NCBI RefSeq assembly: GCF_007750855.1 | Contig: NZ_CP036291.1 | Coordinates: 5,084,001 to 5,148,000 of the forward strand | From: Pirellulimonas nuda | GTDB lineage: Bacteria > Planctomycetota > Planctomycetia > Pirellulales > Lacipirellulaceae | Reading direction: 5' to 3' | Length of the DNA stretch: 64,000 bases | The notes under the pieces: generated by a model | What the model was told of the DNA's origin: nothing | What the model saw: only the letters and a program-made list of their open reading frames with translations | The model's database searches: none | Program-made: the position numbers and the translations under genes | In this document: positions 43,491 through 48,507 of the stretch, in pieces | Layout of the letters: each line of letters opens with the position of its first letter | How positions within the stretch are numbered: position 1 is the first letter of the stretch

Positions 43491-43505
43491 TCGCTGCGCG
43501 ATCGC

Positions 43506-43716
43506 GGTCAGCTTTCAGCGGTCAGCCGTCAGCTTTTCCCTTGGTTGGGCAGCTGCGGTCGGAGGCGTCCCCCTGCGCTCCCCGCGGCAGTTGGCCGGAC
43601 AATCCCCTCTCACTGGCGAGCTCGGCTGCCCTTTCTACAGCCCGCGCTGGATGGTTTACTGAGCGGTCGACTGCCGCTCAAACCATCACTTTCCCAAGCT
43701 GAACGCTGAAAGCTGA
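43506..43716. repeat. TCAGCTTTCAGCG inverted repeat flanking the pre-ileS gap
   Basis: TCAGCTTTCAGCG at 43508-43520 and its exact reverse complement CGCTGAAAGCTGA at 43704-43716. Extra GGTCAGC units lie near 43506-43531. This element fills most of the 245 bp before ileS. Related to the family at 39541-39608. Confidence 0.7.
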
Positions 43717-43735
43717 AAGCCGACAGCTCCTACCC

Positions 43736-46700
43736 ATGTTCCAACCCGTCGATGGCGCCGTCAGCTTCCCGGCGCTCGAAGAACAAGTCCTCGCGTTCTG
43801 GAAAGAGGGGCGGGTGTACGAGCAGTCGCTCGCCCAGCGCGAGGGCGCCCCGCCGTTCGTGTTCTACGAAGGCCCCCCCACGGCCAACGGCATGCCCCAC
43901 CCGGGCCACTGCCTCACGCGGACCATCAAGGACGTCTTCCCGCGGTACCGCACGATGCGCGGCTTTCGTTGTGAAAGAAAAGCAGGCTGGGACACCCACG
44001 GGCTGCCGGTCGAGGTCGAGGTCTGCAAAGAGCTGGGGATCCACAGCAAGGACGAGATCGAGGCCTACGGCATCGAGCCCTTCATCCAGAAGTGCCAAGC
44101 GAGCGTGTGGCGCTACATGCAGGAGTGGCGCCGCCTGACCGAACGACTCGGCTTCTGGGTCAACCTCGACGAGGCGTACGTCACCTACCACCAGAGCTAC
44201 ATCGAGAGCGTGTGGTGGAGCCTCAAGACGTTGTTCGACCGCGGGCTGCTGTACCAGGGTCACAAGATCGTCTGGTGGTGGGCCCAGGGGGGGACGGCGC
44301 TGTCGGCGGGCGAAGTTGGGCAGGGGTATCGGGAGGTGGCGGACCCGAGTGTGTATGTGCGATTTCGATTACTGGACGAAAACGCTTGCGAGGAGTCTGA
44401 CGAGAGCTTAGTCGTTTGGACTACGACGCCATGGACTTTACCGAGTAATCAGTTCGCGGCAGTGCATCCAGAATTGGAGTATGCAGCGTTAGGCACCGAA
44501 CTGGACGGAAAGCCGCATCGATTGATTGTTGCTGCCAAGCTCGTGGAGACGCTCCGGCAAAAAACGAAGCAGGATCTCTTGGAGGTCGATGAGCGGAGAA
44601 AGGGCGAGGACCTAATTGGTCACAGATATCGGCCGCCCTTCGACTGCTACTACTCAGACCAAGCCCATGCTCGGGGCAAGAGGCGAGACGGATTGGAAGA
44701 TGCGCTCGCTTGGCGAATTGTCGGCGCAGACTTTGTGACTACGGATAGTGGTACTGGGATCGTTCACCAAGCGCCCGCGTTCGGCGAAGTCGATTACGAC
44801 GTCCTGGTCGCAGAACGCGATCGATTCATCGAGGACGATGGTCCGACGCTCATCAACTGCGTCGCCCCCGACGGCAAGTTCACCGACGAAGCCCCCGAGT
44901 TCGTCCGTGGCCGCTGGGTCAAGGACTGCGACAAGGACATCATCCGCGACCTCAAGGCACGCGGGCTGCTGTTCCACCAAGAGCAGTACCTGCATGACTA
45001 CCCCTTCTGCTGGCGGGCCGAAGAGGACCCGTTGATCCAGTACCCGCGCGAGAGCTGGTTTATCAAGACCACCGCGTACAAGGACGCGATGGTCGCCAAC
45101 AACCAGGCCGTGAACTGGCTCCCCGAGCACATCAAAGATGGGCGGATGGGGAAGTTCTTGGAGAGCAACGTCGACTGGGCGCTGAGCCGCGAACGCTACT
45201 GGGGCACGCCGCTGCCGATCTGGCAGTGCGACTCCACCGGGAAACAAGAAGCAATCGGCGGGTACGACGAGCTGCTCGCCAAACCGGGGGTCGCCGGGAC
45301 CGACGTTTGGGACAGGGCCAAGGCTAAGAACCCCGACCTGCCGGACGACCTGCGGGTCCACAAGCCGTACATCGACGCGGTGACTTATGACTCGCCGTTT
45401 GCCGAGGGCGCACGCATGAAGCGCGTCACCGAGGTCATCGACTGCTGGTACGACAGCGGCGCGATGCCGTTCGCCCAATGGGGCTACCGCGGCGAAACCG
45501 CGGCGCTTTCCCCCTCCTCCCGAAGTGGAGAGGGGGCAGCCCCCGAGCAACCGTCAGCCAAGGCGAGCGCACTCCGCGCCACAAACCCCCTCCCCAGCCC
45601 TCCCCCTGCCGGGGAGGGAGTACGGCGCGACCCGGCGGCCCAGTTCTTCAGCCAATTCCCCGCCGACTTCATCAGCGAGGCGCTCGATCAAACGCGTGGC
45701 TGGTTCTACAGCCAGCTCGCCATCAGCACGATGCTGTTCGGCGAACAAGAGGCGAGCGGCGACCGGCGAGAAAAGGACGGCGCCGCTAGTGCTCGCCCCT
45801 CGCCCCTCTACCCTCACCCCTTCAGAAATTGCATCGTGCTCGGCCTGATGCTGGGCGAAGACGGGCAGAAGATGAGCAAGAGCAAGCGGAACTACCGCGA
45901 GCCGCGTGAGATCTTCGACAAGTACGGCGCCGACGCGCTGCGGTGGTACTTGCTGGCGAACCAGCCGCCGTGGACCGCCATCCGCTACAGCGAACAAGCG
46001 ATCAAGGACAGCATCCCCGAGTTCTTGCTGCGGCTGTGGAACTGCTACAGCTTTCTGGTGATCTACGCGAACATCGACGGCTGGTCGCCCAGCGGCGCTG
46101 CCGCACCCGGTCCCCCTCCCCGGCAGGGGGAGGGGCTAGGGGAGGGGGCAGCCCCTGGGAAAACGCTCACCAAGGCGATCGCTAGCCGCGTCACAACCCC
46201 CTCCCCCGACCCCTCCCCCTGCGGGGGGAGGGGAGAACGCGTGCTGGCCGAGCGGTCCGAGCTTGACCGCTGGATTATCAGCGAGTTGCACCGCACCGCC
46301 GCTTCCGTGATCGAGCGGATGGACGCCTACGACAACTTCACGGCGTGCGCGGCCATCACCGAGTTCGTCGACGCGCTGAGCAACTGGTGGGTGCGGCGTA
46401 GCCGCGACCGGTTCTGGGCCAAGCAGACGGACTCGCAGGAGAAGCTGGACGCGTACGCCACGCTGTACGAGTGCCTCACCACTACCTGCAAGATCATCGC
46501 CCCGTTCACGCCGTTCTTGGCGGACGCGATGTGGCGGAACCTGTCGGGTATCGTGAAGGGCGCCCCTGAGAGCGTTCACCTGTGCGACTTCCCCGAGCCG
46601 GACGCCGCGGCGATCGACCAGAAGCTCTCGGAGCGGATGGCGTTGGTGCGGTTGATCTCGTCCCTCGGACGGCGGGCGCGCGAGGGCGCCGAGCTGAAGG

Positions 46701-47371
46701 TCCGCCAGCCGCTGGCGCGGGTCGAAGTGATCTTGGCGGACAACACGCACCAGGCCTGGCTGGAAGAGCACGCCGGGGTGATCGCGGACGAGCTGAACGT
46801 CAAAGCGGTGGAGTTCAGCGACACGCCAGAAAAATACGTCGACCACGAGGTGCTGCCCAACTTCAAGCTGCTGGGCAAGCGCCTTGGCAAGCTGATGCCG
46901 AAGGTGAAGCAGGCGCTCAGTCAGCAAAGTGGATCAGAACTTCTTGCGAACCTCCGCGACAACGGGCTGATTGACCTGGAGATCGAAGGCCAGGCCGTGC
47001 AGCTCACGCCGGAAGAGGTCGAGGTCCGCATCCAGGCCAAGCCGGGTTGGGCGTCGGCCAACGACAAGGGGGTGGTGGCGGTGCTGTCGACGGAGTTGAC
47101 GCCGGAGCTGGTGGCGGAGGGGCTGGCGCGGGACGTCGTGCGAGCGATTCAGGACACCCGCAAGGAGCGTGGTTGTGAGTTCACGGACCGGATCGAGATC
47201 GGTTTCGAATCCGATTCAGACCAGCTACGATCGGCGGTCGAGTCGCACAAGAAGTACATTGCAGGAGAAACGCTCGCAGATTCGATTTCGCTGGGGCCTC
47301 TCATCGACGTACAATCGATCGAAGTGAGAATCGGGGATGGCTCAGCCAAGCTGTTCCTGCGGGTCGTCTAG
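43736..47371 (+). CDS. ileS: Isoleucyl-tRNA synthetase with repeat-derived insertions
   Basis: A 1211-aa class I synthetase. The HIGH-type motif is HPGH at 55-58, the editing domain includes [18 protein letters not shown], and KMSKS is at 712-716. Anticodon-binding and C-terminal regions follow. Two in-frame insertions (about residues 591-629 and 792-834) are copies of one palindromic repeat, encoding similar peptides (EGAAP...KA.A.R.T.P). A shorter Arg/Pro-rich insertion lies at about 675-696. A segment at 44320-44860 (editing domain) and the last 200 bp use markedly less GC-rich codons than the rest. All core motifs are intact, so the enzyme is expected to be functional. Confidence 0.95.
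45507..45620 (+). repeat. Palindromic repeat element copy 1, in frame in ileS
   Basis: About 114 bp with terminal hairpins: CCCCCTCCTCCCGAAGTGGAG at the left, a GGGGGCAGCCCCC centre, and CCCTCCCCCTGCCGGGGAGGG at the right. It shares about three quarters of its bases with copy 2 over 90 bp and contributes the peptide [20 protein letters not shown]. The element lies between the catalytic [16 protein letters not shown] motif and [16 protein letters not shown]. No frameshift. Confidence 0.85.
46110..46236 (+). repeat. Palindromic repeat element copy 2, in frame in ileS
   Basis: About 127 bp beginning GTCCCCCTCCCCGGCAGGGG and ending CCTCCCCCTGCGGGGGGAGG. The inner part GAGGGGGCAGCCCC...CCAAGGCGA...CGCG.CACAA.CCCC matches copy 1 in the same orientation and same reading frame, giving [20 protein letters not shown]. 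It falls after KMSKS, just before [13 protein letters not shown] at the start of the anticodon-binding region. Confidence 0.85.
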
Positions 47372-47416: not shown

Positions 47417-47848
47417 ATGCGAGCCGCAGCAGAGATGGTTGAAATCCGCGTTGATGTAACGTTGACCAACGCGATCGACGAAGGTCTCGTGCGTCGTGGC
47501 GGGATGGAGGCGCACGACGTCCGAAGCGTTCAGACCGACGCGAAGGTAGACACCGGCGCCATCCGCACTTGCATACCGGCGAGCCTTGCCAAGCGACTCG
47601 GGCTTACCACTGTCGAACACCTAGAGATCGAACTGGCCAACGGCGAGACGGAGACGGTCGAATTGACAGAACCTCTGCGTATCGAGCTGTCGGGTAGATC
47701 GACGACCGAATCGACGCTCGTACTAGGCAATGAAGTGCTGATCGGCCAGACCGTGCTCGAAACGACCGACCTGTTGGCCGACTGTGCTCGACAGCGCTTG
47801 ATTCCCAATCCAGATCATCCCAACGGTCCGGTACTGAAGGTGAAATGA
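47417..47848 (+). CDS. Retropepsin-like aspartic protease family protein
   Basis: A 143-aa protein with the single-domain aspartic protease motif VDTGAIRT at about 44-51, preceded by an N-terminal strand (VEIRVDVTLTNAID). Family members resemble clan AA retropepsin-like proteins, active as dimers, of largely unknown role in bacteria. The sequence is GC-poorer than its neighbours. ATG 47417 or the ATG at 47435 may be the true start. The stop overlaps the purN start (ATGA at 47845). Confidence 0.75.
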   Translation: MRAAAEMVEIRVDVTLTNAIDEGLVRRGGMEAHDVRSVQTDAKVDTGAIRTCIPASLAKRLGLTTVEHLEIELANGETETVELTEPLRIELSGRSTTESTLVLGNEVLIGQTVLETTDLLADCARQRLIPNPDHPNGPVLKVK

Positions 47849-48507
47849 CGGACCGACACCCGCTCCCCATCGCCGTGCTGATCTCCGGCGCCGGCCGGTC
47901 GCTCAAAAACCTGCTCGACCTGGTCGCAGCGGGCAAGGTGCCGGTCGATGTACGGCTGGTGATTTCGAGCTCGGCGAGCGCCGGCGGGCTGCAGATCGCC
48001 GAGCAAGCCGGCGTGCCGACCTCGGTCGTCAATCGCAGCGACTACGACTCGCACGACGCCTACGGCGCCGGGATCTTCTCGCGGTGCCGCACCGCGGGGG
48101 TCGAGCTAGTCGTGATGGCCGGGTTCTTGAAGTTCGCCCCCGTGCCGGACGACTTTGCCGGCAAGGTGGTGAACATCCACCCGTCGTTGCTGCCGGCGTT
48201 CGGGGGCCAGGGGATGTACGGCGAGCGGGTCCACCAAGCGGTGCTCGACTACGGCGCCAAGGTCACCGGCGTCACCATCCACTTCGTCGACAACGAGTAC
48301 GACCAGGGCCCCATCATCTGGCAGCAGCCGGTGCCGGTGTTCGACGACGACACGGCCGAGTCGCTGGCCGCGCGGGTGTTCGAGACCGAAAAAGAAGCCT
48401 ACCCCCACGTGCTGCGGATGCTGGCCGGCGGGCGGGTGAAGCTGGACGGCCGACGGGTCACCATGACCAGCCCGCGGCGGCGTGCTGCTAGCGAGATCGA
48501 CGAATAG
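47845..48507 (+). CDS. purN: Phosphoribosylglycinamide formyltransferase
   Basis: A 220-aa PurN, which transfers a formyl group from 10-formyl-THF to GAR in purine synthesis. Visible signatures are VLISGAGRSLKNLLD, VVMAGFLKF, NIHPSLLPAFGG (catalytic Asn and His), and the catalytic Asp in YDQGPIIW. Length is normal. The start overlaps the upstream retropepsin-like gene by 4 bp. The last two residues and stop (GACGAATAG) lie in the arm of an inverted repeat shared with the convergent HIT gene. Confidence 0.95.
   Translation: MTDRHPLPIAVLISGAGRSLKNLLDLVAAGKVPVDVRLVISSSASAGGLQIAEQAGVPTSVVNRSDYDSHDAYGAGIFSRCRTAGVELVVMAGFLKFAPVPDDFAGKVVNIHPSLLPAFGGQGMYGERVHQAVLDYGAKVTGVTIHFVDNEYDQGPIIWQQPVPVFDDDTAESLAARVFETEKEAYPHVLRMLAGGRVKLDGRRVTMTSPRRRAASEIDE

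Follow-up and report, generated by a model that had tools for sequence, protein, structure and literature searches.

BoxC/TM-like palindromic repeats in frame inside the isoleucyl-tRNA synthetase gene of a planctomycete

How do palindromic DNA repeats come to lie in frame inside the gene of an essential enzyme, and how does the protein accommodate them? The question is raised by ileS in a 64-kb window (the whole stretch of DNA that was analysed), G000:C1:5084001-5148000, of a planctomycete genome assembled as one contig of 6.62 Mb. The top solved relatives of the ileS product are 8c8v and similar type 2 isoleucyl-tRNA synthetase (IleRS2) chains of Priestia megaterium, at E about 1e-242. Since a search of the own genome (G000) returned a single ileS match at E<=1e-50, the gene is presumably the sole copy and one that must work. 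By eye, the sequence directly upstream (43500-43735) contains short TCAGC- and GCTGAAAGC-type repeats in a run, a further repeat kind; downstream, a small ORF resembling an aspartic-protease-type domain (47417-47848) is followed by a purN-like ORF (47845-48507). The features of ileS are collected in Table 1.

Table 1. Features of ileS and its inserts, in window coordinates
Feature	Position	Strand	Evidence
ileS, type 2 isoleucyl-tRNA synthetase	43736..47371	+	one open frame, 1211 aa; top match among solved structures 8c8v, E 1e-242
Copy 1 of the palindromic element, loop 1 (FAQW...PADF)	45507..45620	+	in frame; own-genome BLAST matches; loop 58 aa
Copy 1 right arm, triplex motif	45586..45618	-	2 mismatches vs E. 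coli consensus; third strand an exact mirror
Third length-variable stretch, loop 2 (LFG...HPFRN)	about 45743..45814	+	loop table; PDB alignment gap
Copy 2 of the palindromic element, loop 3 (YANID...ELDRW)	46110..46236	+	in frame; both arms 0 mismatches to arm pattern
Copy 2 left arm, triplex motif	46114..46146	+	2 mismatches vs E. coli consensus
Copy 2 right arm, triplex motif	46199..46232	-	0 mismatches vs published E. coli TM consensus

According to the initial annotation, ileS holds two copies of one palindromic repeat that share about three quarters of their bases over 90 bp and keep the same reading frame. Both copies are indeed present, in the same orientation and within one open frame of 1211 aa. 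Neither insert contains an in-frame stop, and BLAST aligns the two over 92 query bases with 81 % identity (E 9.9e-15). The palindromic nature and the common frame hold in part. Copy 2 is an inverted repeat whose arms (46111-46148 and 46197-46234) are 84 % complementary, whereas the left arm of copy 1 is shortened, has no third strand and does not come within 4 mismatches of the triplex motif (TM) consensus described below. Only in their middle parts are the two copies read in a common codon phase; the right arms are read in phase 2 (copy 1) and phase 1 (copy 2). The closest relative of copy 1 is an element in the ribonuclease R gene, rnr, of the same genome (G000:C1:998421-998530), 81 % identical over 112 bases and read in the same codon phases. 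The middle phase is common to all three copies, and copy 2 departs from the rnr element by one phase in the right arm. Because copy 1 is thus nearer to the rnr copy than to copy 2, an origin of copy 2 by duplication of copy 1 within ileS is not favoured. An assembly artefact was likewise discarded, the own genome being one contig and other assemblies carrying similar inserts. The initial annotation named two insert-like loops, both of which were found, and overlooked a third stretch, loop 2, at about 45743-45814, which is absent from solved IleRS relatives in the PDB alignment. On its minus strand at 45795 loop 2 has two units of a GAGGGGC heptad; own-genome loci totalling 142,617 bases contain 4 short arrays of such heptads, a raw count. 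This stretch is perhaps a repeat of another kind.

The arm of the element corresponds to a class II intrastrand triplex motif, the BoxC/TMECO motif of E. coli (PMC4666352). The published E. coli consensus reads CCCTCNCCC N3-6 GGGNGAGGG N3 GGGNGAGGG, and the pattern used here for the genome scans was CCCTCCCC-loop-GGGGAGGG-loop-GGGGAGGG. Among 218 arm rows, 6 fit the E. coli consensus exactly, 148 lie within 2 mismatches and 7 fall outside 4; the rows were preselected with a related pattern and some overlap, so that the fit of the whole set is partly by construction. None of the 218 rows came within 4 mismatches once shuffled. At the level of sequence, the plainest fact on the identity of the arm is that the copy 2 right arm matches this consensus without a mismatch. 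The third strand mirrors the purine strand of the stem, the 8-base mirror being exact in 155 of the 218 rows. Within ileS it is exact in three arms out of four, the exception being the left arm of copy 1. A pair was scored as a plus-strand arm followed by a minus-strand arm at most 260 bases on, which makes the inverted order a matter of definition. From arm to arm, 78 of 80 pairs span 84-172 bp, the two exceptions measuring 197 and 299 bp; sizes group around 92 and 150-160 bp, interiors are variable and single arms are common.

The rest of the genome does contain further copies of the repeat. Copy 1 has 21 own-genome BLAST matches at E<=0.01, and a scan with the exact arm pattern gives 23 occurrences, compared with none when the pattern is reversed; together with the shuffled arms, these counts rule out chance similarity. 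Two one-mismatch matches to the pattern, at 979 and 4313 kb of the own genome, gave no arm in the arm scan. Exact arms are present in 14 of 43 genomes of the family, which we take to be Lacipirellulaceae, and the backwards control gave 0 in all 43. Among 196 genomes drawn from the order, exact arms are present in 13 of the 36 that belong to the family and in none of the 160 others. Several copies may lie clustered within about 8-13 kb, as at loci L238 (G000:C1:382000-395500) and L313 (G002:C1:472400-488100). Taken together, both inserts of ileS belong to a dispersed inverted-repeat element that has class II triplex motifs at its outward ends and that occurs in intergenic DNA as well as, in frame, within genes.

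The nearest known system is BoxC/TM. As described by Holder et al. 2015 (PMC4666352), it has the same pyrimidine-purine-purine arm with a second loop of 3 bases, often TTA, CTA or CCG; inverted pairs occur there too, and four of the pairs in Table 1 of that paper span 85-100 bp by subtraction. The same paper reports that E. coli oligonucleotides of the motif form a triplex as an isolated single strand. Two E. coli intergenic sites, fepB-entC and ygfF-gcvP, were looked up. The planctomycete elements differ in that their interiors vary and are often longer than those of BoxC/TM pairs. They also lie in frame in genes, whereas the account of E. coli MG1655 in that paper has the motif always intergenic (PMC4666352); that location is a property of the E. 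coli collection and not of the motif as such.

A second parallel, drawn in the initial annotation, is with the Rickettsia palindromic elements (RPE), reportedly described by Ogata et al. 2000. The parallel is sound as to the effect and fails as to membership. Reviews portray RPE as palindromes of 105-146 bp in frame in unrelated conserved genes, with one host enzyme (gmk) staying active (PMC2229807, PMC10969869), and a palindrome of about 100-150 bp in frame in unrelated conserved genes is also what is seen here. However, the planctomycete element has no single peptide frame: all three phases of the left arm are used in the ileS loops, and the right arms of copies 1 and 2 differ, the shared middle phase of these copies and the rnr copy notwithstanding. 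Its BoxC/TM arms, moreover, place it by arm consensus in another DNA family, and its host is a planctomycete. The third comparison concerns the GTAG/CGTC REPs. Repeats within the genes of DnaE2, uvrA, recB and tRNA synthetases were reported by Di Nocera et al. 2013, two Xanthomonas recB genes being hit at about the same site (PMC3733652), and DnaE2, uvrA and tRNA synthetase genes are hosts here as well. REPs are, however, 20-40 bp long with GTAG or CGTC tags, the GTAG kind being tied in that account to RAYT transposases (PMC3733652), while the arm of our element is another sequence and no Y1 transposase lies beside an element copy among the matches listed. A search of the open-access literature on planctomycete repeats, intragenic REPs, IleRS insertions and coding triplex repeats gave no such case among the matches listed.

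Insertion in frame is not confined to ileS. By codon-usage score, 8 of 25 own-genome rows and 15 of 113 rows from relatives lie in coding frames, where rows do not equal elements: three rows represent the two ileS copies and two represent one element at locus L309. ORF L247, coding by this score and without a family match, is probably spurious. Flanks were examined in the own genome and in G002, G004, G006, G012, G018, G041 and G042, that is, in 8 of the 14 positive genomes. Hosts whose family models score above cut-off are rnr, dnaE2 (error-prone DNA polymerase, with two inserts), bioA (G006 and G042), uvrA (G042 and G002, two genus codes), an AMP ligase gene (G018 and G042), the cytosine methyltransferase gene dcm and an NRPS gene, the last with a borderline codon score. 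Tentative hosts, with a family match under cut-off, are two adenine methyltransferases (one in G006, also under the codon threshold, and one in G042), a GlcF-like protein and a glycosyltransferase. As G006, G018 and G042 fall in one genus code, gene sites common to them may be inherited. With regard to uvrA, a double-length frame of about 2345-2626 aa was counted by hand in at least 31 of the 43 family genomes (for example G000:C1:5584795-5590698; L376-L396 in part; L311), and the double-length gene of G002 (L311) holds three palindromic elements in frame. A role of uvrA as a second hotspot was rejected, the motif being found in 0 of 30 scanned loci, though other uvrA copies carry elements.

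In relatives, the ileS loops differ in having or lacking the element. An ileS match was obtained in 42 of the 43 family genomes, and loops 1, 2 and 3 were measurable in 39, 36 and 35 genomes, respectively. Loop 1 has 15-18 aa in 23 of the 39 and 24-82 aa in the other 16 (hand count). Among 80 loci from named relatives, largely Pirellulales, loop 1 could be measured in 64, with 13 aa in 53, 14 in 1, 15 in 8 and 17 in 2; the other 16 were unmeasurable. The triplex motif is present in loop 1 of 8 of 39 genomes at up to 3 mismatches and of 11 of 39 at up to 5, in loop 3 of 7 of 35 and in loop 2 of none of 36. The loop 1 sequences of G041, G007 and G040 fit only with 4-5 mismatches, a level that shuffled G007 loops reach in 3 of 50 cases. 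For loop 3, the placement in G041, where the scan interval was too long, rests on the exact arm and the loop table, and the row of G001 was left out, its interval having run over loop 1. The initial annotation had named two results that would speak against it, loops conserved in relatives that share no repeat elsewhere and a lack of other copies in the genome; neither occurred.

On the best tree of the 39 IleRS cores without loops, parsimony, which counts changes and not their direction, gives 7 changes for loop 1 with all 11 carriers and 5-6 if the three weak ones are left out or scored absent. Loop 3 requires 5 changes over 34 measured rows, five rows with unmeasured loop 3 (including G012) being left out. 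Well-supported branches alone force 4 changes in loop 1 and 3 in loop 3. The same two IleRS loops have thus gained or lost elements several times within one Pirellulales family.

The suggestion that the repeat is tolerated as loops of the protein agrees with the structural data. An AlphaFold2 model of residues 1-1060, built on an alignment with 29 relatives, has a mean pLDDT of 80.1. Values below 50 are found at 586-630, 672-690 and 789-831, the three inserts, and otherwise only at 347-349. The PDB sequence alignment with solved type 2 IleRS runs in blocks 14-590, 636-786 and 839-1191, whose breaks coincide with inserts; those of copies 1 and 2 fall between blocks, the alignment resuming on either side. 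The model makes it likely that the inserts are disordered, although a thin alignment at unique inserts is an alternative cause of low pLDDT.

The explanation that accounts best for these observations, and one that we consider very probable, is that BoxC/TM-like non-autonomous repeats inserted repeatedly, were filtered for an open frame and were retained as disordered loops. Copies would spread by a process that uses the hairpin or a single strand, the candidates being a trans-acting transposase and template switching at stalled forks. As the element is G+C-rich and often free of stops, some insertions into genes leave the frame open. Selection would then remove insertions that break the fold and keep those in length-variable loops, where the retained peptide, rich in proline and glycine, would probably form a disordered linker. 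The insert would be translated rather than spliced, at a cost that is mild at most. Outside genes, 22 of 66 pairs combine an open frame with an arm-to-arm length divisible by three, and inside genes only 3 of 13 pairs have such a length; the true ends of the element must therefore differ from the arm ends, and the filter argument is a rough one. An adaptation of the element towards being stop-free is unsupported, intergenic copies having 1.71 of 6 frames open versus 2.11 in shuffles. As to the mover, the own genome has 15 Y1_Tnp matches, and the 10 with listed positions all lie more than 10 kb from an element copy, so that none of these 10 is tied to the element. Five of the 15 have nearly equal top scores and may be copies of a single insertion sequence. 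Of the 43 family genomes, 42 have Y1 transposases, and these include genomes without an exact arm. Comparison with relatives gave no readable target-site duplication or exact empty site, the relatives being too diverged.

Repeated insertion has to be weighed against a single old insertion in each loop, inherited vertically and lost in sister genomes, with the excess in ileS due to old age and slow loss of in-frame copies. G006, G018 and G041, of one genus code, do have loop 3 inserts with similar flanking peptides. The tree gives no direction, its supported branches force few changes, and for loop 3 the clustering falls only just short of what chance labels permit, 5 changes being needed against a mean of 6.5 after shuffling. 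However, within either loop the left arms differ in phase from genome to genome: in loop 3, phase 2 in G000 and G004, 0 in G002, G006 and G018, and 1 in G056; in loop 1, phase 2 in G042, 0 in G001, and 1 in G056 and G057. Sister genomes also differ, G015 having the motif in loop 1 and none in loop 3 and G002 the reverse, so that repeated losses would have to restore the plain loop 1 of 17 aa seen in G002 against its insert-bearing sister. In addition, copy 2 looks young, its arms being intact. Descent from one insertion per loop is, in our judgement, rather unlikely.

We are just as doubtful that ileS is a true insertion hotspot, where a DNA feature of the loops would attract the element beyond mere tolerance. 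At up to 3 mismatches the motif is found in loop 1, loop 3 or both of 13 of 39 ileS genes, compared with 0 of 30 valS genes (Fisher p 0.0003; 7 of 27 against 0 of 30, p 0.003, for genomes in both sets), p values that are too small given that the rows are related; some of the valS loci are incomplete, the longest frame being 492 aa at the least. That G041 has only two exact arms, one of them in ileS, points in the same direction. Nevertheless, the same excess is expected if insertions are selectively kept in loops able to take up linkers of 40 aa. Other genes are also shared as hosts: bioA, AMP ligase and adenine methyltransferase copies are present in two genomes each, in one genus code and possibly by inheritance, and uvrA copies in two genomes of two genus codes.

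The element could instead act in RNA or DNA, as a terminator, pausing site or instability switch, and regulate the enzyme through its presence in ileS. The RNA of copy 2 is predicted to fold into a very stable hairpin (-92 kcal/mol, z -5.6; for copy 1, -52.9 and z -2.3), and TM sites have been linked to genome instability in the E. coli study (PMC4666352). We regard this reading as improbable: presence of the element differs between sister genomes, and the 64-kb window gave no Rfam match, on which ground an RNA family was rejected. Convergent growth of a G+C-rich, low-complexity coding loop by slippage, which would suit the Pro/Gly/Ala-rich insert peptides and the several unrelated repetitive peptides of loop 2, is scarcely credible for arms that keep stem, loop and mirror third strand, a structure lost on shuffling, and that are also found between genes.

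A tentative case can be made that the IleRS loops are recurrent landing sites of BoxC/TM-like elements across genera, more so than ValRS, and as such a record of both insertion and fold tolerance, in which the linkers may tune the enzyme. Palindromes that code for protein are on record from Rickettsia, Wolbachia and genomes rich in REPs (PMC2229807, PMC3733652). In the present case a widespread kind of repeat, described as intergenic in E. coli, is inserted in frame in planctomycete genes that are essential or serve repair, and in the same loops in several genera. This illustrates how palindromic DNA can be tolerated within proteins, and such loops need not be errors of assembly or annotation. 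It also opens two questions to testing: which activity moves BoxC/TM repeats, and whether repeats that are translated are simply tolerated or sometimes used.

Two minor observations concern the loops of relatives. Loop 3 of G012 contains a PPREGEG peptide that may be the relic of an arm. Loop 2, perhaps a third tolerated site that accepts unrelated repeats, contains in-frame repetitive peptides of the types NPQSEIPNPQS/NPKSEIRNPKS and NDEARMTNDE...FDIRHSSF in relatives of several genus codes.
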